Of a stretch of 64,000 nt of DNA, positions 5,437 through 64,000 are shown piece after piece. Origin of the DNA: Paludibaculum fermentans. GTDB taxonomy: Bacteria > Acidobacteriota > Terriglobia > Bryobacterales > Bryobacteraceae. The translations under genes were made by a program, and so were the position numbers. The stretch spans positions 6,401,501 through 6,465,500 of the forward strand of contig NZ_CP063849.1 in NCBI RefSeq assembly GCF_015277775.1. The letters run 5' to 3'. Each line of letters begins with the position of its first letter. The first letter of the stretch is position 1. The notes under the pieces are model-generated. The model was not told the origin of the DNA and ran no database searches. It saw only the letters and a list, made by a program, of their open reading frames with translations.

Positions 5437-6768
5437 ATGCCGCAAGCCACTGGGCTCCCCACGGTCGTTATCGTGGGTCGTCCCAACGTGGGTAAATCCA
5501 CTCTCTTCAACGCGATTCTCGGTCAACGCAAGTCGATCACCGGCGACGAGCCCGGCATCACGCGCGACCGCATCATCGGCGACGCCGTTCACTTCAACCG
5601 CCCGTTCCAGCTCATCGACACCGGCGGCATCGTGCCGGAAGACGCCGAGTGGATCCCCGCCCAGATTCTCAAACAGGCCCGCGTCGCCCTCGACGTGGCC
5701 GACCAGATCATCTTCCTCATCGACGGCCGCACCGAAATCACCTCGGCCGATCGCGACCTCGCCCAGATCCTCCGCCGCCTCGGCAAGCCCGTCACCCTGG
5801 CCGTCAACAAGATCGACGTGGCCAAGCGCGAGTCGCTCACCACCGCCTTCTTCGAGCTCGGCTTCAAGGACGTCATGTCCGTCTCCGCCGAACACCGCCT
5901 CGGCCTCGAGGAACTGCTCGATCACGTCACCCGCGACTTCACTGAAGTGGAGCCCGTCGACCCCGAAGAGCAGGCCGGCAAACTCCGCCCCATCCGCGTC
6001 TCCATCATCGGCCGCCCCAACGTGGGCAAGTCCACGCTGCTCAACGCCATGGTCGGCGGCGAACGCGCCATCGTCTCACCCATCGCCGGCACCACCCGCG
6101 ATTCCGTCGACGAACACACCATCATCGAAGGCCGCGAATACGTCTTCGTCGACACCGCCGGCATCCGCCGCAAGGGCAAGACGCATCTCATGGCCGAGAA
6201 GCTCAGCGTCGTCATGGCCCGCCGCAACATCCGCATGGCCCACATCGCCCTGCTGGTCATCGACGCCACGGAAGGCCCCGTCGGCAGCGACGCCACCATC
6301 GGCGGCTATGCCCACGAGGAAGGCCGCGCCCTCGTCATCTGCGTCAACAAGTGGGATCTCCTGCCGGAGAACAAGCGCAAGGAGTTCGAACAGAACATCC
6401 GCGACGAGTTCAAGTTCCTCGACTACGCGCCCATCGTCTTCCTCTCCGCCAAGGAGAAGAAGGGTATCAACAGCCTCTTCCGCCACATCGCCACCGTCTA
6501 CGAGAACTTCGACAAGCGCGTCTCCACCGGAGAACTCAACCGCTTCGTCGACATGCTCAAGCTCGAGCGCGACCGCCGCATCTTCTTCATGACGCAGCCT
6601 TCCGTGCGTCCGCCCACGTTCGTGCTCTTCATGGATCGCGGCGAGCCTCTCCACTTCTCCACGGAACGCCAGGTCATCAACCGCATCCGCAAGAAGTTCG
6701 GCTTCGACGGCACGCCCATCGTACTCAAGATCAAAGCGCGCCGCGGCCCGAAAGACGCCCGCGCTTAG
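5437..6768 (+). CDS. der: Ribosome biogenesis GTPase Der (EngA)
   Basis: Essential GTPase with two tandem G domains that acts in 50S ribosomal subunit maturation; 443 residues. Two Walker-A motifs, GRPNVGKST, are visible at about residues 12-20 and 190-198, each with its own DTGG/DTAG and NKxD motifs (NKID, NKWD). The C-terminal KH-like domain runs from about residue 365 and ends in a basic tail. It is divergent from typA and its stop codon overlaps the convergent neighbour by 4 bases. The 192-bp gap to typA holds the promoter region but no unambiguous -35/-10 pair. Confidence 0.97.
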   Translation: MPQATGLPTVVIVGRPNVGKSTLFNAILGQRKSITGDEPGITRDRIIGDAVHFNRPFQLIDTGGIVPEDAEWIPAQILKQARVALDVADQIIFLIDGRTEITSADRDLAQILRRLGKPVTLAVNKIDVAKRESLTTAFFELGFKDVMSVSAEHRLGLEELLDHVTRDFTEVEPVDPEEQAGKLRPIRVSIIGRPNVGKSTLLNAMVGGERAIVSPIAGTTRDSVDEHTIIEGREYVFVDTAGIRRKGKTHLMAEKLSVVMARRNIRMAHIALLVIDATEGPVGSDATIGGYAHEEGRALVICVNKWDLLPENKRKEFEQNIRDEFKFLDYAPIVFLSAKEKKGINSLFRHIATVYENFDKRVSTGELNRFVDMLKLERDRRIFFMTQPSVRPPTFVLFMDRGEPLHFSTERQVINRIRKKFGFDGTPIVLKIKARRGPKDARA

Positions 6769-7367
6769 TCTTTCACGGCCTCTCGCCCTACCACCCAGTG
6801 GATGTGGTCGAACTCCCGCATCCTGATCTGCTGCTTCAGCCCGTCGAACTTCAGCAGGTCCGTGTCTTTCTTCAACTGCTCACACGCCTCCGCGGAGAGT
6901 TCCACCCGATAGTGGTCCGCCCGGTCGCGATACGAGTAGGTGAGATACCGAGCCTCCCCCGATGCCTCCAGCAGGCACTGCCAGAAGCTGCGCCTGCGCA
7001 GGAACCGCCGCGGCTCCGCTGCTTCCCTTGGTACATCAATGCGCGATGTCGCGCTCGCCAGCGTCGCCTTCCGGCAGCACGCGGCATCCAGGCGCCGGCG
7101 CGGCTCCGGCTTCGGCAGCAGCGCTACCGCGGCCTCTGCATCGGCCTCGTCACAGACCCAACCTTCCCACCGGAACCGGGAGGCTCCGCTCACCAGTGTC
7201 CCGCGCTTCAGAATCTCTCTCACCCGCGTGGCATCGGTACCCGAAGCAGTCGCGACGTGCTGCATCAGCTCCGCGAACGGCAGGTCCTGCACCACCACCG
7301 GCGTCAGCGCGACATACTCCGCCGCCTCACTCGAGAGCTTCACACGAACCTGCTGCGGCAACGCCAT
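6765..7367 (-). CDS. Hypothetical protein, about 200 residues
   Basis: I do not recognise this protein. It has no signal peptide, membrane segment or known catalytic motif. The N-terminal half reads as a small mixed alpha/beta domain and the centre is arginine-rich (PEPRRR, PRRFLRRRSFW). The C-terminal half ends in HIHWVVGREAVKD. It is kept as a gene because it fills the gap between der and the next plus-strand gene with local codon usage and has a good ATG. Its stop overlaps that of der by 4 bases tail to tail. Its start faces the 92-residue gene across 42 bp, so the two may share a divergent promoter. Confidence 0.6.
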   Translation of the reverse strand: MALPQQVRVKLSSEAAEYVALTPVVVQDLPFAELMQHVATASGTDATRVREILKRGTLVSGASRFRWEGWVCDEADAEAAVALLPKPEPRRRLDAACCRKATLASATSRIDVPREAAEPRRFLRRRSFWQCLLEASGEARYLTYSYRDRADHYRVELSAEACEQLKKDTDLLKFDGLKQQIRMREFDHIHWVVGREAVKD

Positions 7368-55737: not shown

Positions 55738-56466
55738 TCAGGCGACGCGCCGGAACCAGGCTTTCACGTGGCGGGCCGCGGCCAGTTTGCGGCCTTCCTC
55801 CTCGCCGATGATGCGCAGGGCGGTGTCCAGGCCGTCGGCCTCGAGACCCGTTTTGGCCAGGACCGAAACCAGCCAGACCTGCTCCACCAGTTGGCCCGTG
55901 CGGGCGTCGCGGATGTGGCGGCGGCCGGTGTCACCGGCGGTGGAGACGGCGGAGTTCTTCAGCTTGAAGGTCTGCTGGGCGGCCTCGATCATGACGTGCC
56001 AGGCGCCTTCGCCGACGACGATGTCGCCACTGAGGGCGACCATCGAATGGGGACAGCCGTGGGCGCGCAGGACGCGCAGCATCTCGTCGCCGGCGTAGCC
56101 TTTGCCGATCGCTCCTAAATCCAGCTTCATGTTGGGTTTACGTAGGGTGACGGTGCGGGTTTTGGCGTCCAGCTCGACATCGCGGAAGGTGGACGAGCGG
56201 GTGCGGTCGCCGATGGTGATGTCGAAGGCTCCGTGGGTGGCGACGGCGAGGCTTTGGGCGGCTTCGATATTGCGGAAGAGGTCGACGGAGACCTGGGCGC
56301 TGCCGGCGCGGCAGAGACGGTTTAGCTCGCTGTCGGGCTTGTAGTCAGAGAGGGTCGCGTCGAGTTCGCGGAGCCGGCCGAAGGCGGCGCGCAGGGCGTG
56401 GTCGGCCCGGTCCCGTTCGCGGGTTTCGATGACCACGCGAACGAGGGTGCCCATGGAGGGCTCCAC
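55738..56466 (-). CDS. apbE: FAD:protein FMN transferase (ApbE)
   Basis: Transfers FMN from FAD to a threonine or serine of target flavoproteins; 242 residues, shorter than typical because it lacks an export signal. Motifs: EPSMGTLVRVV near the start, ATHGAFDITIGDRTR, the FAD/Mg site KLDLGAIGKGYAGDEML at about 115-131, and SAVSTAGDTGRRHIRDARTG. The frame is closed 16 codons upstream, so the start must be GTG 56466 or ATG 56454. Third gene of an operon after the MocA and SUMF1-like genes, probably maturing a flavoprotein of the pathway. Confidence 0.86.
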   Translation of the reverse strand: MEPSMGTLVRVVIETRERDRADHALRAAFGRLRELDATLSDYKPDSELNRLCRAGSAQVSVDLFRNIEAAQSLAVATHGAFDITIGDRTRSSTFRDVELDAKTRTVTLRKPNMKLDLGAIGKGYAGDEMLRVLRAHGCPHSMVALSGDIVVGEGAWHVMIEAAQQTFKLKNSAVSTAGDTGRRHIRDARTGQLVEQVWLVSVLAKTGLEADGLDTALRIIGEEEGRKLAAARHVKAWFRRVA

Positions 56467-56485
56467 GAGCTCGAAGCGTTCGGGT

Positions 56486-57490
56486 TTACGGATCGACTTC
56501 TACTCCATTGTTCCAGAAGGAGTTCATCTCGACCACCGAGGGCACCTTCAGGGGCCGCACCAGGCGGAAGCCGAGCCACTGGGCATCGGTGAGGTACCAG
56601 ATGCTCTTGGGGAGTTGAGGATCCTGCTGTTTCCAACTGGCGTCGGAGGCGACGCGGGCTCCGCAGCGGAGGCTGGACGCGGGGTCGTTCCAGGAGCCGC
56701 CGCGGGCGACCTGCGGGTAGGAGGTCTTGGACTTCACCCAGGGATTGACGGCATCGCCGGCCGGGTAAGGGGCGTATGCGTCAAGGGTCCACTCCATGAC
56801 GTTGCCCAGCATGTCATAGAGCCCCCAGGCATTAGGCTTCTTCGTGCCCACCAGTTGATACTTGCCGTTGGCGTTGGCGTCGTACCAGGCCGAGGCGGCG
56901 AGATCGACCGGGGCGTTGCCGGCGCGGCAGGCGTACTCCCACTCTGCTTCGGTAGGCAGGCGGTAGAACTGGCCGGTTTTGGCGCTGAGCCACTGGGCGT
57001 ACTTGTTGGCCGCGTGCTGGGTCATGCTGATGGCCGGAAAGCCGTTCAGGCCCATGCCGAAGCTCATTTCGACGTAGGGCCGGGTCGGGTGGGACACGGC
57101 GTCGACGTCCGGCATTTTGCCCTCGACATGGGAGAACTGGAAGAGACGGTACTCGTCCCAGGTGACTTCGCGGGCGGCCATCCAGAAGGGATCGAGCCGG
57201 ACCTTGTGCTGGGGGCCCTCGTCCTTCTGGCGGCCGGCTTCCCCCGCGGGGGTACCCATGGTGAATTCGCCGCCCGGGATGGGGACCATCTCGAAGCTGA
57301 CATCGGTGCCGGGGATGGTGGATTTGTAGGGCTTCATGTCGGAAGCCTTCTTTTCCTTGGTCCCGGAGGCGATGCGGCGCTGCAGGCCCTGGACGAGTTT
57401 GAGGTCGTCGGCGGGCGGTTTGGCCGGGGCCGCTGTTTGGGCGGCCGCCGGCAGAGCTAATAGAAAGAAGAACTTACGCAATTTCCGCAT
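56486..57490 (-). CDS. SUMF1/FGE-fold exported protein, one Cys of pair missing
   Basis: 334-residue secreted protein with signal peptide (KFFFLLALPAAAQ) and a formylglycine-generating-enzyme-sulfatase fold. Motifs: PGGEFTMGTPAGEAG, REVTWDEYRLFQFS, RLPTEAEWEYACRAGN, MLGNVMEWTLDAY, and VARGGSWNDPASSLRCGARV. True FGE needs two cysteines in that last segment (around GGSxMCHxSYC); only the second is present, so oxidation of sulfatase cysteine is unlikely. Related proteins bind or modify other substrates. Located 8 bp after the MocA gene and 19 bp before apbE. Confidence 0.85.
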   Translation of the reverse strand: MRKLRKFFFLLALPAAAQTAAPAKPPADDLKLVQGLQRRIASGTKEKKASDMKPYKSTIPGTDVSFEMVPIPGGEFTMGTPAGEAGRQKDEGPQHKVRLDPFWMAAREVTWDEYRLFQFSHVEGKMPDVDAVSHPTRPYVEMSFGMGLNGFPAISMTQHAANKYAQWLSAKTGQFYRLPTEAEWEYACRAGNAPVDLAASAWYDANANGKYQLVGTKKPNAWGLYDMLGNVMEWTLDAYAPYPAGDAVNPWVKSKTSYPQVARGGSWNDPASSLRCGARVASDASWKQQDPQLPKSIWYLTDAQWLGFRLVRPLKVPSVVEMNSFWNNGVEVDP

Positions 57491-57498
57491 GGTTCGGG

Positions 57499-58773
57499 CT
57501 AAATGAACTTGGTCTTGCCCGGCAGCGGCAGCGGCGGAACGGCGAGGCTGCCCTTCCAGTCGATGGTGTCGGGGACAAGGCGTTCCTGGGAGTTGAGAGC
57601 CTGTTCCCAGGTGATCTGCTGGCCGGTGTAGGCGGCCATGCGGCCCATCATGGCGAGCAGCGTGGAGGTGGCCATGCGCTTGCCGTCGTTGATCGGCTGG
57701 CCCTTGCGGATGGAGGCGAACAGCACGTCGTGCTCGTGCTGGTACATGTCGTTCTTCTGGCCTTCAAAGCTCCAGGGATTCTGGCCTTCGATGCGCGGAT
57801 TGGGGCCGCGGCCGATGGTGCAGGTACCCTTGGTGCCGAGGATGTAGTCGGAGTTCTCGTTGTAGCAGTTCTCGGTCTGGCGGTTGGCTACGAAGGCACG
57901 GACGCCGTTGGGATACAGGTAGTTGACGGCGAAGTGGTCGTAGATATTGCCGCCGTTGGCGGGGATCTGGCGGCCGCCGACAGCCACGCAACTGATGGGG
58001 GGCTGGTCCTTCATGGCCCAGGCCACCTTGTCGACGCTATGCACGGCCTGTTCCACCAGGCTGTCGCCGCAGAGCCACTGGAAGTTGTACCAGTTACGGA
58101 TCTGCCATTCCGTGTCGCTCATGCCGGCCGGGCGGGTGCTCTCGGGGGGCATGGGCTTGACGGGGCTGGTGTAGTAGGTGGCGTAGTAGGCGACGATGTC
58201 ACCGATGGCGCCGCTACCGATCTTGTCGAACGTCTCCGCAATGTAGTTGGAATAACGCCAGCAGAAGCCGGCGACGAGCGAGACGTTCTTCTTGGTGGCG
58301 ATGTCGACGGTCTCCAGGACGTGGCGGACGCCGGGTCCGTCGGTGGCCACGGGCTTCTCGCAGAAGACGTGCTTGCCGGCCTCGATGGCGTAGCGCAGGT
58401 GCTGCGGGCGGAAGCCGGGCGGTGTGGCCAGCAGGACCACGTCCACGCCGCTGTCGATCACCTTCTGGAAGGCGTCGAGGCCGATGAATTTCTTATCGCT
58501 GGCGACCTTGATCTTGGGGCCGGCCGCACGTTGGAGGCGGGCCAGGCTCTTGTCGATCGTATCCATGTCGATGTCGGCAACGGCCGTCAGTTCGGCGTAG
58601 TCGTCAGCCTTGAGGGCCTGGGCGGCTGCACCGCTGCCACGGCCGCCTGCACCGACGAGTCCAACCTTGATTGCATTCGCGCTCTGCGCGGCGGAAAGTA
58701 TGGCGGGGAAACCCACGGCGCCGGCTTTTAGGAAGCCGCGGCGGCCGGGCAGCCCCTCAGCTGATTGGTTCAT
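57499..58773 (-). CDS. Gfo/Idh/MocA family oxidoreductase, Tat-exported
   Basis: 424-residue NAD(P)-dependent dehydrogenase-like protein with a twin-arginine signal (GRRGFLKAGAVGFPAILSAA). The Rossmann motif is VGLVGAGGRGSGAAAQAL at about 33-50. The catalytic-lysine segment is AGKHVFCEKPVATDGPGVRH at about 132-151. YYATYYTSPVKPMPPESTRP resembles members with an inserted loop. First gene of the MocA/SUMF1/ApbE operon, divergent from the multihaem operon across a 153-bp region that contains a palindromic promoter. Substrate unknown. Confidence 0.9.
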   Translation of the reverse strand: MNQSAEGLPGRRGFLKAGAVGFPAILSAAQSANAIKVGLVGAGGRGSGAAAQALKADDYAELTAVADIDMDTIDKSLARLQRAAGPKIKVASDKKFIGLDAFQKVIDSGVDVVLLATPPGFRPQHLRYAIEAGKHVFCEKPVATDGPGVRHVLETVDIATKKNVSLVAGFCWRYSNYIAETFDKIGSGAIGDIVAYYATYYTSPVKPMPPESTRPAGMSDTEWQIRNWYNFQWLCGDSLVEQAVHSVDKVAWAMKDQPPISCVAVGGRQIPANGGNIYDHFAVNYLYPNGVRAFVANRQTENCYNENSDYILGTKGTCTIGRGPNPRIEGQNPWSFEGQKNDMYQHEHDVLFASIRKGQPINDGKRMATSTLLAMMGRMAAYTGQQITWEQALNSQERLVPDTIDWKGSLAVPPLPLPGKTKFI

Positions 58774-58926: not shown

Positions 58927-60213
58927 ATGATTGTGCGCGGCATGGTGCTCACCGCGGCCATGACGGCTGCGTGGGGCGCTGATGGCGCCCTGGCGGCGGC
59001 TGGAGCGATGGCTCCAGGGTCGGCCGGACTGGTGGTGACGCAGGCCCGGGCGGGCCACGGCGAACGGCTCTACCTGCTGGAATGGACGGGCCGGGGGCGT
59101 GTCCTGAGCGACGGATTCGCGGCGGCGGCCGATCCGGACGTATCTTTCGACGGAAAGCGCATTTTATTTGCGGGCCGGCGCGCGGCGGGCGAGCCCTGGC
59201 AGGTGTTCGAAATGAACGCGGACGGCGGCGGCGTGCGGCAGATCAGCCACGAGAAGGGCGGGTGCCGCCAGCCGGTGTATCAGTCGCGGATCTTTTCGCT
59301 GGATATTCCCGAGCCCTGGCCGCAGGTGGCGTTTGTATGCGGCGGGGCCCTGTATTCGTCGAAGCTGGACGGCTCGGATGTCCAGCGGCTGACGTATGCG
59401 GGGCAGAGCGACACGGGTCCGGCGATGCTGCCGGAAGGCCGGATGATCTACTCGTCGGGCGGCCGGCTGTTTGGAATCAACCTGGACGGGACGGATTACG
59501 CGTTGTTCACCGGTGGGCTGAATGCGCGCACGGCGGCGGCGGTGGGCCGGAAAGTCGTGTTTGTGGAAGCGGCCGGGCAGTTGTCGATGGTCACGCAGGA
59601 GCGGCCGCTCCACTCCCATTCCGCGCTGACGGCGGCGGCCGACGGCGTGTTCGCAGCCCCCGCGGCGTTGGGCGAAGGCTCCGTGGTGGTGGCGAAGAAG
59701 GGCCCGGCGGGCTGGGGGCTCTGGCGGCTGGAGCTGGCGACGCGGAAGCAGACTCCGCTGTACGACAGTCCGGAGTTTGATGAGCTCCAGGCGAAGGTGG
59801 TGGGTCCGCATGAGCAGCCGGATGGGCGCGGCACGGTGGTGGAGACCGAGGCGCCGAGCGGCCATTTGTACTGCCTCAGCGTATATACCAGCGACCGGCC
59901 GGCCGCGGCGGGCTCGATCCGGAAGGTCCGGGTTTTGACGGGACCCGAGGCGGCTCCGGTGCGGCTGGGCGAGTTGGCGGTGGAGGCGGACGGGTCGTTC
60001 CACCTCGAAATTCCGGCCAACACGAAAGTGAAGCTGCAGACGCTGGATGCGGCTGGGCAGGTGATGCGCAGCAGCGGCTGGGTGTGGGTGCGGAACAAGG
60101 AAAACCGGGGCTGCATCGGCTGCCACGAGGATCCCGAACTCGCGCCGGAGAACGTGGAAGCGCAGGCCGTGATCAAAAAGCCCGTGCGGTTGGGATTGGG
60201 GGACAAGAAATGA
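58927..60213 (+). CDS. Exported beta-propeller with C-terminal haem c site
   Basis: About 428 residues. A signal peptide (GMVLTAAMTAAWGADG) is followed by TolB/WD40-like repeats (about 60-300: ADPDVSFDGKRILFAGRRA, AFVCGGALYSSKLDGSDVQR, MIYSSGGRLFGINLDGTDYA). A beta-sandwich segment (about 310-385) follows, and a single c-type haem motif GCIGCHED lies at about 400. The layout resembles the hydrazine-synthase alpha-subunit-like family, but I cannot prove membership. ATG at 58927 is preferred to the upstream in-frame start because of the signal. Its stop overlaps the next gene (ATGA). Confidence 0.78.
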   Translation: MIVRGMVLTAAMTAAWGADGALAAAGAMAPGSAGLVVTQARAGHGERLYLLEWTGRGRVLSDGFAAAADPDVSFDGKRILFAGRRAAGEPWQVFEMNADGGGVRQISHEKGGCRQPVYQSRIFSLDIPEPWPQVAFVCGGALYSSKLDGSDVQRLTYAGQSDTGPAMLPEGRMIYSSGGRLFGINLDGTDYALFTGGLNARTAAAVGRKVVFVEAAGQLSMVTQERPLHSHSALTAAADGVFAAPAALGEGSVVVAKKGPAGWGLWRLELATRKQTPLYDSPEFDELQAKVVGPHEQPDGRGTVVETEAPSGHLYCLSVYTSDRPAAAGSIRKVRVLTGPEAAPVRLGELAVEADGSFHLEIPANTKVKLQTLDAAGQVMRSSGWVWVRNKENRGCIGCHEDPELAPENVEAQAVIKKPVRLGLGDKK

Positions 60214-61853
60214 AGCTCGGCCGGCTGGTGATTCTGATGGCGGCGACCGTGTGGGCGGCCGACGAAGGCACGCTGCCGGTATTCACGGACATCACCAAGG
60301 CGGCGGGCATCACGTTCCGGCACAGCTACGGCGACCACCACCTGGACAACATCGTGGAAGGCACGGGCGCCGGCGCCTGTTTCTTCGACTACAACAACGA
60401 CGGCTTCCAGGACATCTACTTCGTCACCGGCGTGTGGACCAAGAGCGTCAGCGACAACGAGGGCCGCGAGCTGCGCGGCAAGCTGTCGGGCAAGCTCTAC
60501 AGGAACAACGGCAACGGCACGTTTACCGATGTGACGGCGCAGGCGGGCGTGGCCAGCATGACCTTCGGGTCGGGCTGTTCGGCCGCGGATTACGACAATG
60601 ATGGCCGGGTCGACCTCTACCTGCTGAACTACGGCGCGAATACGCTGTATCACAACAACGGCGACGGAACGTTCACCGATGTCTCCGAGAAGTCCGGTCT
60701 GGCGGATCCGCGCTGGAGCGTGTCGGCCGTGTGGCTCGACTACAACAACGACGGCTGGCTGGATGTCTTCGTCGGAAACTACCTGCACTATGACGACGGC
60801 AAGTTCCGCGACTTCTATCCGGCCCAGGGGTATCCGGGGCCGCTCAGCTATAGCGGGCAGGCGAATGCGCTCTACCGGAACAATGGCGACGGCACCTTCA
60901 CGGAAGTGACGAAGGAAGCCGGCGTCTACAAGCCCAACGGGCGGGCGATGAGCGTCACCGGGGCCGACTTCAACAACGACGGCTTCCTCGACATCTTCGT
61001 GGCGAACGACGCCATGGAGAACTACTTCTTCGAAAACACCGGCAAAGGCACGTTCGTGGAGAAGGCCCTGGACCTCGACATTGCCTACAGCGAGCACGGG
61101 CAGGGCGTGTCGTCGATGGGCCCGTTCTTTGGCGATGTGAACCGTGACGGCTGGCTGGACATCTTCGTGCCGAACCTGAACTACGTCAGCCTGTTCGTCT
61201 ACAACCCGAAGGAAAAGCACTTCGACAACCAGGCAAATGCGGCCGGCCTGTCCGCGATGCTGGGGCAGTATGCGGGCTGGGGTTCGGTGGTCTTCGACTA
61301 CGACCACGACGGCTGGCCGGACCTGTTCACGGTGCATGGCAATGCGCACCACGAGTACGTCCAGGAAGACACGCTGGTGCGGAACAGGCATGACGGCACG
61401 TTTGAGGACGTGTCGCGGCGCTCGGGCAGCTATTTCAACGAAAAATACGTGGGCCGCGGTGCGGCGTGGGCGGATATCGACAACGACGGCGACATCGACC
61501 TGCTGGTGGTGAACCTGAACGACGCGGCGAAGCTGCTGCGGAATGACGGCGGCAATGCAAAGCCCTGGCTGATGGTGGATGCGCGGCTGAAGTTCCCCAC
61601 CGGGTCGCGCACCGCGATTGGCGCGCGCGTGACCGTGACGGCCGCCGGGCTGAAGATGATCGACGACGTGAATCCGGTGCGGGGCTACCTGTCGCAGGGC
61701 GATGCGCGGCTGCACTTCGGGCTGGCCGGCGCGAAGGAAGCCGACACGGTGGAGATCCGCTGGCCGGACGGTCAGGTGGAGCGGCTGGAACACGTGAAGG
61801 CCAACCAGATTCTGAAGCTGGAACACGCGGCCACGGCAAAGGCGGCACGCTGA
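60210..61853 (+). CDS. FG-GAP/ASPIC-UnbV repeat secreted protein
   Basis: About 547 residues, related to CRTAC1. The signal peptide is short (LVILMAATVWA). At least seven FG-GAP/VCBS propeller blades carry calcium-binding DxNxDGxxD loops: DYNNDGFQD, DYDNDGRVD, DYNNDGWLD, DFNNDGFLD, DVNRDGWLD, DYDHDGWPD, and DIDNDGDID. The C-terminal UnbV domain has ARVTVTAAGLKMIDDVNPVR and LHFGLAGAKEADTVEIRWPD. It likely folds as an extracellular calcium-stabilised propeller that binds protein or carbohydrate partners. It overlaps the preceding stop (ATGA), and the next gene starts 3 bases after its stop. Confidence 0.9.
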   Translation: MKLGRLVILMAATVWAADEGTLPVFTDITKAAGITFRHSYGDHHLDNIVEGTGAGACFFDYNNDGFQDIYFVTGVWTKSVSDNEGRELRGKLSGKLYRNNGNGTFTDVTAQAGVASMTFGSGCSAADYDNDGRVDLYLLNYGANTLYHNNGDGTFTDVSEKSGLADPRWSVSAVWLDYNNDGWLDVFVGNYLHYDDGKFRDFYPAQGYPGPLSYSGQANALYRNNGDGTFTEVTKEAGVYKPNGRAMSVTGADFNNDGFLDIFVANDAMENYFFENTGKGTFVEKALDLDIAYSEHGQGVSSMGPFFGDVNRDGWLDIFVPNLNYVSLFVYNPKEKHFDNQANAAGLSAMLGQYAGWGSVVFDYDHDGWPDLFTVHGNAHHEYVQEDTLVRNRHDGTFEDVSRRSGSYFNEKYVGRGAAWADIDNDGDIDLLVVNLNDAAKLLRNDGGNAKPWLMVDARLKFPTGSRTAIGARVTVTAAGLKMIDDVNPVRGYLSQGDARLHFGLAGAKEADTVEIRWPDGQVERLEHVKANQILKLEHAATAKAAR

Positions 61854-61856
61854 GCG

Positions 61857-64000
61857 ATGAGACCACGGACCATTGCGGTGTTGGCGGCCGGGCTGGTGGC
61901 CCTGCTCGGCATGGGCGGCGCGGCTCCGAAGAAGCCGGTGTATGTGGGCGCGCGGGCCTGTGGCCAGTGCCACGACGGCGCCGGCATGGGCAACCAGTAC
62001 AGCAAGTGGCTCACGACGAAGCACTCCAAGGCCTATGCGGTGCTGTCGCTGCCGGAGTCGGTGGAGATCACCAAGCGCAGCGGCCTGCGCGGGCAGCCGT
62101 GGAAAGAGCCCATCTGCCTGGGGTGCCATTCGACGGCCTCGACGGCGGAAGACTGGGAAAAGGACGACGCGTTCCGGCCGGAAGACGGGCTGCAGTGCGA
62201 GTCGTGCCACGGTCCGGGCAGCGAGTACATGAGCGAAGAGGTGATGCGCAACCGGGCCGAAGCGATGAAGGCCGGGCTGCGGCTGCCCAACGAGGATACC
62301 TGCCTGGGCTGCCATATGGAGAAGGGGTCGCACACGGCGGTGAACCCGAACTCGACCGTGGACATCAAGCAGGCGATTCCACGCATTGCGCATCCGCTGA
62401 TGAAGCCGTCGCAGTTGCGCGCCGCGCCGGCTCCGCGGGGCGGCGATTTCATCGGCTCATCGGCGTGCGGCGCGTGCCACAAGGGTCCGGAGTCCGGCCA
62501 TCAATGGGACGTGTGGCGGCGCAGCGATCATGCGCGGGCCTGGGCTGTGCTGTCGACGGCGGATGGGCGGCGGATCGCGGATGAGATGAAGGTGACGGGC
62601 GATCCGCAGTTGAGCAAGCAGTGCCTGGGCTGCCATGCGGTGGGCGCTGAAGCCAATGAGGGCGTGGGCTGCGAAGCGTGTCACGGCGCGGGCAAGAAGT
62701 ACGCGACCGAGGCCGTGATGAAGGACCCGGCGGCGGCGAAGGCCGCGGGCTTGCGGATTCCGTCCACTACGGGCTGCAATCACTGCCATCGGGAGACACA
62801 TGGCAAGACCTTCGACGCGGCCAAGGCGTGGACGAAGATCGCGCACCCCACGAAGGTGCCGCCGCCTCCGGCCGAGATCCGGTACAAGACCCCGCTGAAC
62901 CTGACGTTCCGGCCGCATACGGCGGAGCTCTGGGTGACCTGCGAGTCCGGCAACGTGGTGGCGATTGTCGACACGGTGTCACGGCAGAAGCAGGCGGAGA
63001 TCGTGGTGGGCAATGCGCCCACGGATGTGGCGTTTACTCCGGACGGCAAGCGGGCGTTCGTTTCGAATCGCGAAAGCGACACGGTGAGCGTCATCGATAC
63101 CGAGACGCGCAAGGTGACGTCGACGCTGAAGGTGGGCGACGAGCCGCATGGCGTGCTGACCGATGCCCAGGGGCGGCGTCTGTACGTGTTGAACACTTCG
63201 TCGAACGACATCTGGGTGTTTGACGTGGCCACGCTGCAGTTTGTGAAGACGCTCTCGGGTGGCGTCGGGCCGTGGTCGCTGGCCTTGTCTCCGAATGGCA
63301 AGTCCATCGCGGTCACCAGCACGTTCTCGAACCTGACGGGCTTCCGCAAGCCGCTGAAGTCGGAGATCACGCTGATCGACACAGAGCGGGCCGCCGTCGT
63401 CGATCGCCCCATGGTGCCCGGTACGAATTTGATGGCGGGCATCGCGTGGCATCCCAGCGGCCGCTTTGCCCTGGCCACGATGAACCGGACGAAGAACCTG
63501 GTTCCGATGACGCGCCTGATGCAGGGTTGGACCATTACGAACGGGCTGGCCGTGCTCTGGGCGGACGGCACGGTGGACCAGGTGATGCTGGACCAGCCGG
63601 GCTCCGGCTTCTCGGATGCGACCGATGTGGCCATCACGAACGATGGGCGCTACGCGCTGGTGACGAGCTCGGGCACAGACCGTGTGGCGGTGGTCGACTG
63701 CGCCAAACTCGAGCGGATGCTGAAGGCGGCCACGCCGAAAGACCGCGAGACCGTGATCCCGAATCATCTGGGCAAGTCAGCCGAATTCCTGGCCGGGTTT
63801 GTACCCACGTCGACCAGTCCGCGCGGTGTGACGATGGGGCCGGACGGGCGGTATGCCTATGTGGCCGGATCCCTGGACGATGAGTTGACGGTGATCGATC
63901 TCAAGACACTGCAGCCGGCCGGCCGCATCAGCCTGGGCGGGCCGAAAGAGATCACACTGCAGCGCAAGGGCGAGCGGCTGTTCCACAACGCGAAGATCTC
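61857..64000 (+). CDS. Octahaem cytochrome c fused to YVTN beta-propeller (3' end cut)
   Basis: Open from ATG 61857 to the window edge, at least 714 residues, so the C-terminus is missing. The signal peptide (TIAVLAAGLVALLGMGGAA) is followed by eight CxxCH sites in two tetrahaem sets. Set one: ACGQCH, CLGCH, CESCH, CLGCH (about residues 35-160). Set two: ACGACH, CLGCH, CEACH, CNHCH (about 200-310). Each resembles cytochrome c554. From about 365 on are YVTN-type propeller blades (VGNAPTDVAFTPDGKRAFVS, VGDEPHGVLTDAQGRRLYVL). Likely an extracellular or periplasmic electron carrier or redox enzyme. The last gene of the three-gene operon. Confidence 0.88.
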   Translation, partial: MRPRTIAVLAAGLVALLGMGGAAPKKPVYVGARACGQCHDGAGMGNQYSKWLTTKHSKAYAVLSLPESVEITKRSGLRGQPWKEPICLGCHSTASTAEDWEKDDAFRPEDGLQCESCHGPGSEYMSEEVMRNRAEAMKAGLRLPNEDTCLGCHMEKGSHTAVNPNSTVDIKQAIPRIAHPLMKPSQLRAAPAPRGGDFIGSSACGACHKGPESGHQWDVWRRSDHARAWAVLSTADGRRIADEMKVTGDPQLSKQCLGCHAVGAEANEGVGCEACHGAGKKYATEAVMKDPAAAKAAGLRIPSTTGCNHCHRETHGKTFDAAKAWTKIAHPTKVPPPPAEIRYKTPLNLTFRPHTAELWVTCESGNVVAIVDTVSRQKQAEIVVGNAPTDVAFTPDGKRAFVSNRESDTVSVIDTETRKVTSTLKVGDEPHGVLTDAQGRRLYVLNTSSNDIWVFDVATLQFVKTLSGGVGPWSLALSPNGKSIAVTSTFSNLTGFRKPLKSEITLIDTERAAVVDRPMVPGTNLMAGIAWHPSGRFALATMNRTKNLVPMTRLMQGWTITNGLAVLWADGTVDQVMLDQPGSGFSDATDVAITNDGRYALVTSSGTDRVAVVDCAKLERMLKAATPKDRETVIPNHLGKSAEFLAGFVPTSTSPRGVTMGPDGRYAYVAGSLDDELTVIDLKTLQPAGRISLGGPKEITLQRKGERLFHNAKI

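Follow-up and report, generated by a model that had tools for sequence, protein, structure and literature searches.

A seven-gene operon of Paludibaculum fermentans very probably encodes a hydrazine synthase-like haem complex, with a tentative link to chorismate metabolism

Genes 1 and 3 are related to the subunits of hydrazine synthase

A 64,000-nucleotide stretch of the genome of Paludibaculum fermentans (contig NZ_CP063849.1, positions 6,401,501 to 6,465,500 of the forward strand; hereafter the window) ends within an operon of seven tightly packed genes. These encode, in order, a protein resembling the alpha subunit of hydrazine synthase (HZS), an FG-GAP/UnbV protein, a fusion of two c554-like modules with beta-like and gamma-like domains, a Reg_prop propeller, two Peripla_BP_6 binding proteins and a Rid-type protein. 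To judge from their sequences, genes 1 and 3 are homologous to all three HZS subunits and belong to a wider HZS superfamily. The operon very probably encodes an HZS-like alpha/beta-gamma complex, which is almost certainly not a hydrazine synthase. The best overall explanation, which we hold with moderate confidence, is an HZS-like haem enzyme with two sites, perhaps tied to a chorismate-derived aromatic compound. The core cluster is already known; this analysis adds a tentative link to chorismate. The genome consists of two contigs, 9.53 Mb in total, and 12.5 kb of sequence was examined past the window end. Coordinates above 64000 extend the window numbering (locus L002 + 56500), genes 4 to 7 (64652-68776) corresponding to L002 8152-12276.

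Gene 1 (58927-60213, + strand) encodes an exported protein of 428 residues, made of an N-terminal propeller and part of the HZS_alpha middle domain. It matched this middle domain (PF18582, 5.7e-17), the NCBIfam model hydrazine_alpha (5.9e-23, 80.7 bits, with a cut-off of 800) and chain A of the HZS structure 5c2v, the latter at 1.3e-17 as a single sequence and at 9.7e-52 as a 17-row profile. Its haem motif, CIGCH (residues 396-400; 60112-60126, + strand), was located by a CxxCH scan and by alignment at the position of haem alpha-I. It is the single motif of the window's alpha, the alpha-II haem motif being absent from it. The alignment comprised 17 of the 19 alpha matches from the 61-genome search described below, the partial L036 and L019, at a contig end, being left out. 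The CxxCH motif was kept in all 17 alphas, and a CX4CH motif was seen among them in L029-L032 only. The alpha-like protein of L035 (7382-9181, genome G060) carries three extra CxxCH motifs at its C-terminus.

Gene 3 (61857-64655, + strand, of which 61857-64000 lies in the window) encodes a decahaem fusion of 932 residues, recognized from its open reading frame (ORF) and from Pfam, NCBIfam and PDB matches. The ten CxxCH motifs are at residues 35, 87, 114, 149, 204, 256, 272, 307, 722 and 846, the last two past the window end. A first tetrahaem c554-like module (residues ~34-155; 61956-62321, + strand) was delimited by its CxxCH positions and by PF13435, which matched in two stretches (best 34-119, 1.5e-25). 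A second tetrahaem module (residues ~203-310; 62463-62786, + strand), delimited by its CxxCH positions, is missing from some relatives, which have fewer such motifs. Then follow an HZS-beta-like propeller (residues 345-680; 62889-63896, + strand) and an HZS-gamma-like dihaem domain of MauG/CCP type (residues 696-932; 63942-64652, + strand, mostly past the window end). The best NCBIfam model for the whole protein was hydrazine_BC, the HZS beta-gamma fusion (1.5e-54, 185.3 bits, with a cut-off of 1250). Against 5c2v_B, gene 3 scored 3.1e-37 as a single sequence and 1.6e-63 as a 15-row profile; the corresponding values for 5c2v_C were 3.6e-15 and 2.9e-34. A fold comparison, limited to the propeller in the model of the L022 homologue, a close relative, ranked 5c2v_B first (E 1.2e-28) and the surface-layer YVTN structure 1l0q next (7.7e-21). 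The template modelling (TM) score of this propeller against HZS beta was 0.88 by target length and 0.53 by the half-disordered query.

A sequence-only reading of the window had proposed that three neighbouring genes for exported proteins make up one exported redox assembly. Genes 1 to 3 are indeed all present, run in one direction and almost touch, the start of gene 2 overlapping the end of gene 1 by 4 bases and gene 3 following gene 2 after 3 bases; all three N-termini are signal-peptide-like, as judged by eye. A single exported assembly is still the best reading, given the tight packing and shared conservation of the genes and the matches of genes 1 and 3 to the three subunits of one solved complex. 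Gene 3 had been described as an octahaem protein joined to a propeller. The haem arm and the propeller hold up, but the count does not: eight was obtained because the window ends inside gene 3, and the full protein has ten CxxCH motifs, which brings the three genes to eleven haem motifs instead of nine. The likeness to HZS alpha, then considered merely suggestive, turned out to be a clear homology extending over alpha, beta and gamma (5c2v chains A, B and C).

The complex differs from hydrazine synthase at key residues

In HZS, haem alpha-I is ligated by Tyr591 while the motif His binds zinc (PMC12607021), and haem gamma-I has an additional bond to Cys165 (PMC12758564); these papers and the others given by PMC number are cited for excerpts of their text. 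Gene 1 has Glu, not Tyr, four residues past the motif His, and this position is occupied by Glu in 15 of the 17 aligned alphas, by Ala in two and by Tyr in none. The beta-gamma alignment contained 15 rows, L036, L019, the cut L028 and L038, where no beta-gamma was found, being left out. In it, the equivalent of gamma-Cys165, which is Cys775 if the inferred numbering offset of 39 is applied, was Cys in 14 rows and Asp in L034. Trp764 was invariant (15/15); according to PMC12758564, a Trp related to that of CCP/MauG occupies the place of gamma-His144. Arg778 was also invariant, and gamma-Asp168 was not retained, the alignment showing CGRDP versus CGPRL with a one-residue gap. The absence of alpha-Tyr591 and gamma-His144 indicates that this is not an anammox HZS, and no free hydrazine would be made for anammox.

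Could the operon nonetheless encode a true hydrazine synthase, and with it an unrecognized anammox capacity? This would agree with the homology to three subunits and with the conserved Cys165 equivalent, but not with the loss of Tyr591 and His144, nor with NCBIfam scores that amount to a tenth to a seventh of the cut-offs. The excerpted text of PMC12758564 likewise rejects an HZS identity for its clades. PF13447 (HAO family, hydrazine dehydrogenase) had no match in the genome (G000), though none was obtained in any of the 14 controls either. The genome has one match to an NrfA-type gene, below the cut-off. We regard this possibility as extremely improbable.

When compared with HZS itself (5c2v, from Kuenenia stuttgartiensis), the operon's proteins share the alpha propeller and haem domain, the beta propeller, the gamma dihaem domain and the extra Cys, but they do not keep Tyr591, gamma-His144 or (in the alignment) gamma-Asp168. 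The operon also differs in having alpha upstream of a fused beta-gamma gene, an FG-GAP gene in between and an octahaem arm. Clusters of alpha, FG-GAP and beta-gamma fusion genes outside anammox have been described by Hagglund et al. (Dec 2025; PMC12758564). Their clade I has eight additional haems of c554 type and counts Paludibaculum fermentans and Syntrophobacter fumaroxidans among its members. Our operon shares with it, as far as the excerpts go, the order alpha - FG-GAP - beta-gamma, the two c554 modules with their eight extra haems, the Cys at gamma-165, the Trp in place of His144 and the lack of alpha-Tyr591. The second (alpha-II) haem is reported as present in clade I, Opitutus terrae excepted, whereas the window's alpha is short (428 residues) and has no alpha-II motif. 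In clade III, ABC binding proteins are noted and UnbV/FG-GAP precedes alpha. Clades I-III were judged in the same excerpts not to be hydrazine synthases, and no function was assigned to them. The main text makes no mention of acidobacteri-, UnbV, RidA, chorism-, phosphoheptul-, shikim- or regulator, although Fig. 4c of that paper may show more genes. In Phycisphaerae UBA1845 (PMC10732223), a fused hzsBC-like gene lies behind an hzsA-like gene, as in our operon, but with no gene between them; the excerpt presents these organisms as possible novel anammox bacteria and raises the idea of a larger family acting on other substrates.

The operon recurs across Acidobacteriota

At E <=1e-20, gene 1 was found in 7 of the 9 genomes of the same genus, its own included, and in 17 of the 61 genomes searched. 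Among 396 genomes sampled phylum-wide, at least 21 contained alpha (E <=1e-30), at least 20 beta-gamma (E <=1e-100) and at least 19 both, these counts being lower bounds, with two or three candidates scored per genome. A contig scan with gene 1 gave a single relative, L022.

Forty-one loci were tabulated, and we counted the neighbours in the 25 in which beta-gamma was present with 4 kb or more of sequence before it and 4.5 kb or more after it. Excluded for a short flank or for lack of a beta-gamma match were 16 loci (L026, L027, L028, L036, L038, L082, L087, L089, L090, L095, L096, L097, L100, L101, L106 and L107), while L104 and L105 were kept, as misses. Alpha was present in 24 of the 25 loci, UnbV in 24, Reg_prop in 22, the first binding protein in 23 and the Rid-slot protein in 20 (L088, L099 and L105 have longer proteins with a Rid domain). 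The figure for the second binding protein, 11, is an undercount, the second protein of L034, L035 and L098 matching the first one best. In ten loci there was in addition a gene for 3-deoxy-7-phosphoheptulonate (DAHP) synthase, discussed below. Twelve of the 25 loci had been found via alpha, which is there by construction; in the remaining 13, found by a beta-gamma match, alpha was present in 12. As the same neighbours occur in many genera of the phylum, the association is more than chance, and Reg_prop, binding-protein and Rid genes do recur with the cluster across Acidobacteriota. The sequence-only reading was to be given up if the three genes were nowhere else neighbours, or if they matched a characterized system of known function; they are neighbours in these many genera, and the clusters of PMC12758564 are, in the excerpts, only described. 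That description does overturn the idea that the three-gene combination was new.

These findings bear on another explanation, namely that gene 3 provides a peroxidase or electron-transfer module of CCP/MauG type, which the arm and the propellers wire and hold, alpha being a structural remnant without a second active site. It would account for the invariant Trp764, the residue tied to CCP/MauG by PMC12758564, and for the weak matches of the gene 3 C-terminal domain to the CCP_MauG and MauG models (2.4e-4 each). Yet alpha was present in 19 of the 20 beta-gamma genomes of the phylum sample, its CxxCH motif was kept in every aligned sequence, the Cys165 equivalent was nearly always retained, and a plain peroxidase has no obvious need for binding proteins or for Rid and DAHP synthase genes. 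We consider this explanation fairly unlikely.

Beta-gamma genes hold ten, six, three or two CxxCH motifs (a few truncated or extended ORFs deviate from this), which marks their haem arm as a movable part. Gene order varies as well, UnbV preceding alpha in some loci, e.g. L098, L099 and L102. L095, L097 and L098 combine UnbV before alpha with six CxxCH motifs in beta-gamma (the gamma pair plus four), an arrangement not given in the excerpts of PMC12758564. In L105 (9164-17657, genome G070), a beta-gamma-like gene without alpha is followed by a 1059-residue protein that also matches the HZS beta-gamma model and, further on, by a gene of GldK/EgtB type and a longer protein whose Rid domain is chorismatase-like. 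In L034 and L035, the alpha-like gene is preceded, at a distance of a few hundred bases, by a Crp/Fnr-type regulator gene (6373-7074 and 6458-7147, respectively), whose FNR-like N-terminal cysteines hint at control by oxygen or nitric oxide in both genomes.

Gene 7 shares features with chorismatases

Gene 7 (68288-68776, with an ATGA overlap with gene 6) encodes a protein of 162 residues without signal peptide that Pfam and NCBIfam assign as Rid/RutC-like. Imine hydrolysis by RidA requires Arg105, a residue that is replaced by Ser in ~10% of RidA proteins (PMC4433059). In 22 of 25 proteins occupying the Rid slot of such operons, the motif LPAS(T/V)GI replaces this region, and the other three have no Arg at that site, as judged by eye from the alignment. 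All 25 contain the motif CR.(D/E)(L/W)L.E. Its Cys and last Glu, aligned through the L088 protein, are spaced like Cys327 and Glu334 of structure 5ag3. We take 5ag3 to be Hyg5, which agrees with the numbering of Glu334, and Cys327 presumably has a role in it. Glu334 is an active-site residue of the chorismatase Hyg5 (PMC7170507).

Gene 7 thus shares with the chorismatases FkbO and Hyg5 (4bps, 5ag3) the Cys/Glu spacing and the SGTAS and H.GD motifs, but it is only as long as their C-terminal half and scores better as a Rid protein. The slot protein of L088 is longer (394 residues) and chorismatase-like, matching TIGR04444 at 1e-15 (57.8 bits, with a cut-off of 325) and FkbO at 6.4e-9. In a tree, the Rid-slot proteins formed one group (99/96), separate from the 16 other Rids compared. 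Those 16, retained from 23 comparison rows, are a subset of the Rid proteins matched in ten genomes; L161 was mis-framed, and from this tree we use the slot grouping alone.

Repeated recruitment of DAHP synthase is the simplest history

DAHP synthase was encountered in 11 of the 41 loci, ten by clustering of neighbours (genes outside the operon set of the window type) and L099 by a motif search in ORFs. In L092, L093 and L094, there is a 4-base overlap between its ORF and the gene 1 ORF. In L034 and L035 it lies between the Rid gene and the binding protein, and in L099 it separates the two binding proteins; in all other loci it is found at an end of the operon. All 11 cluster copies passed the TIGR01361 cut-off (in the G131 copy, a TAG falls inside the match), and each of the 11 genomes holds at least one additional passing copy. 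By a rough estimate, the chance of finding a DAHP synthase within 5 kb of a random place is ~1 in 100.

In a tree of 40 DAHP synthase rows, the eleven cluster copies required at least four label changes, and their grouping as a single clade was rejected (p-AU 7e-5). L126 and L136, with no clean frame, were left out of this tree, L134 and L137 form long branches, and G262:C52, labelled 'other', falls among the cluster copies. Since the cluster copies do not form one clade, the simplest history is more than one recruitment of DAHP synthase into the operon. Apart from these operons, a Rid-type gene and a DAHP synthase gene overlap in L169 (9535-10937; G093:C22), and behind them lies the gene for a 761-residue tetratricopeptide repeat (TPR) protein. 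No HZS-like gene was present within the 20 kb fetched around L169, and this pair supports a joint role of Rid and DAHP synthase.

Another interpretation is that gene 7 is an ordinary imine/enamine deaminase in an operon for the oxidation of an amine or an amino acid, the ligand of the Peripla_BP_6 proteins, and that DAHP synthase is incidental. The Rid/RutC calls of Pfam and NCBIfam, which outscore chorismatase, the Rid-type nature of all PDB matches and the amino-acid type of the first binding protein speak for it. It agrees less well with the missing Arg105 in the slot proteins, though a Ser occurs there in some RidA proteins (PMC4433059), or with the apparently repeated recruitment of DAHP synthase. 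On balance we find it unlikely, slightly more so than the peroxidase explanation.

The aromatic genes of the relatives could also indicate an extracellular electron conduit or a self-made shuttle, in which the arm would trade electrons with an exported aromatic made by the Rid and DAHP synthase genes. The eight c554 haems and the varying number of haems in the arm, as in a wiring module, would suit this. However, none of the seven operon genes was recognized by Pfam as encoding an outer-membrane porin, armless versions retain the other genes, and DAHP synthase was found only where the arm is less than full. We consider a conduit quite improbable.

Proposed function

Genes 1 and 3 would form a periplasmic or surface complex of an alpha-like subunit and a beta-gamma fusion bearing an octahaem electron-transfer arm. 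Electrons may run between a periplasmic partner and this arm, and on to the dihaem centre of the gamma-like domain. There, at haem gamma-I, a small intermediate would arise and follow the beta-like propeller as far as the alpha haem, where a second half-reaction may take place. The two Peripla_BP_6 proteins would capture or present a small molecule, and the FG-GAP/UnbV and Reg_prop propellers could be assembly or ligand-sensing parts. In this detail, the two-site chemistry is unlikely to be correct as written. A chorismate-derived aromatic as partner or product of the reaction is a tentative proposal, about which we have more doubt than conviction.

Several observations weigh against this interpretation of the complex and its substrate. 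By sequence, the gene 3 propeller matched 1l0q (8.7e-46; 2e-68 as a profile) slightly ahead of HZS beta. The predicted fold of gene 1 was unusable (mean predicted local distance difference test (pLDDT) of 40.4), and in the L022 beta-gamma model the propeller was confident but the gamma domain was below 50 pLDDT. Gene 7 obtained 52.1 bits with RutC, 50.1 with Rid and 31.1 with chorismatase (cut-off 325), has half the length of a chorismatase, and had 19 PDB matches (E <=1e-5) that were all Rid-type, with no chorismatase among them; because it scores better with the Rid models, we grade the chorismate link lower. The Rid-slot gene was missing from 5 of the 25 loci. A second UnbV - Rid pair lies behind TPR genes elsewhere in the genome (L170 7723-9949; G000:C1 ~4487723-4489949); its Rid protein is 78% identical to gene 7, and as there are no HZS-like genes there, the partner of the Rid protein may be UnbV and not the haem enzyme. 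Finally, neither the window's operon nor any of the 12 other fetched loci with ten haems contains DAHP synthase, which leaves the relatives and the Rid gene as the basis of the aromatic link.

If the chorismate link is true, these operons come with a chorismatase-like enzyme of their own and with an independently and repeatedly recruited DAHP synthase. At issue is the origin of hydrazine synthase; PMC12758564 placed homologous clusters outside anammox and, in the excerpts, named no substrate for them. HZS-like operons are scattered over many Acidobacteriota families. The recurring extra genes provide a concrete lead to the substrate, in chorismate metabolism. Searches of the open-licence literature found no link between HZS and chorismate; of the two papers that contain both terms, the review PMC11705231, in the excerpts considered, names them in unrelated passages, and PMC6982389 is an anammox reactor study. 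It is conceivable, though somewhat unlikely, that the HZS family members outside anammox are exported haem enzymes of chorismate-derived aromatic metabolism and that hydrazine synthase descends from such an aromatic enzyme, in which an intermediate passed between two haem sites.

Other genes in and around the operon

Gene 2 (60210-61853, + strand) encodes an exported protein of 547 residues with FG-GAP repeats (PF13517, 2.5e-64) and a C-terminal UnbV/ASPIC domain of CRTAC1 type (PF07593, 6.6e-24). Gene 4 (64652-65803), which shares an ATGA overlap with gene 3, matched Pfam Reg_prop (1.6e-5) and the sensor-kinase propeller 4a2l (7.8e-26). Gene 5 (65800-67242, with an ATGA overlap with gene 4) encodes the first Peripla_BP_6 protein, assigned by Pfam and by a PDB match to 4gnr, of branched-chain amino-acid type (1.3e-21). 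The second one, gene 6 (67245-68291), begins after a 2-base gap and has a twin-arginine-like start. No permease is encoded among the seven operon genes, and an Rfam scan of the window gave zero matches.

A gene of the 3-keto-disaccharide-hydrolase type starts 66 bases 3' of gene 7 and was found again solely in L023 and L024 among the loci compared. On the other side of the operon, genes of GFO/IDH oxidoreductase and FGE-sulfatase type (Pfam) and an ApbE-like gene (recognized by eye) occupy the - strand of the window at 55738-58773, pointing away from the operon; the same families were seen again next to the operon in L023-L027.

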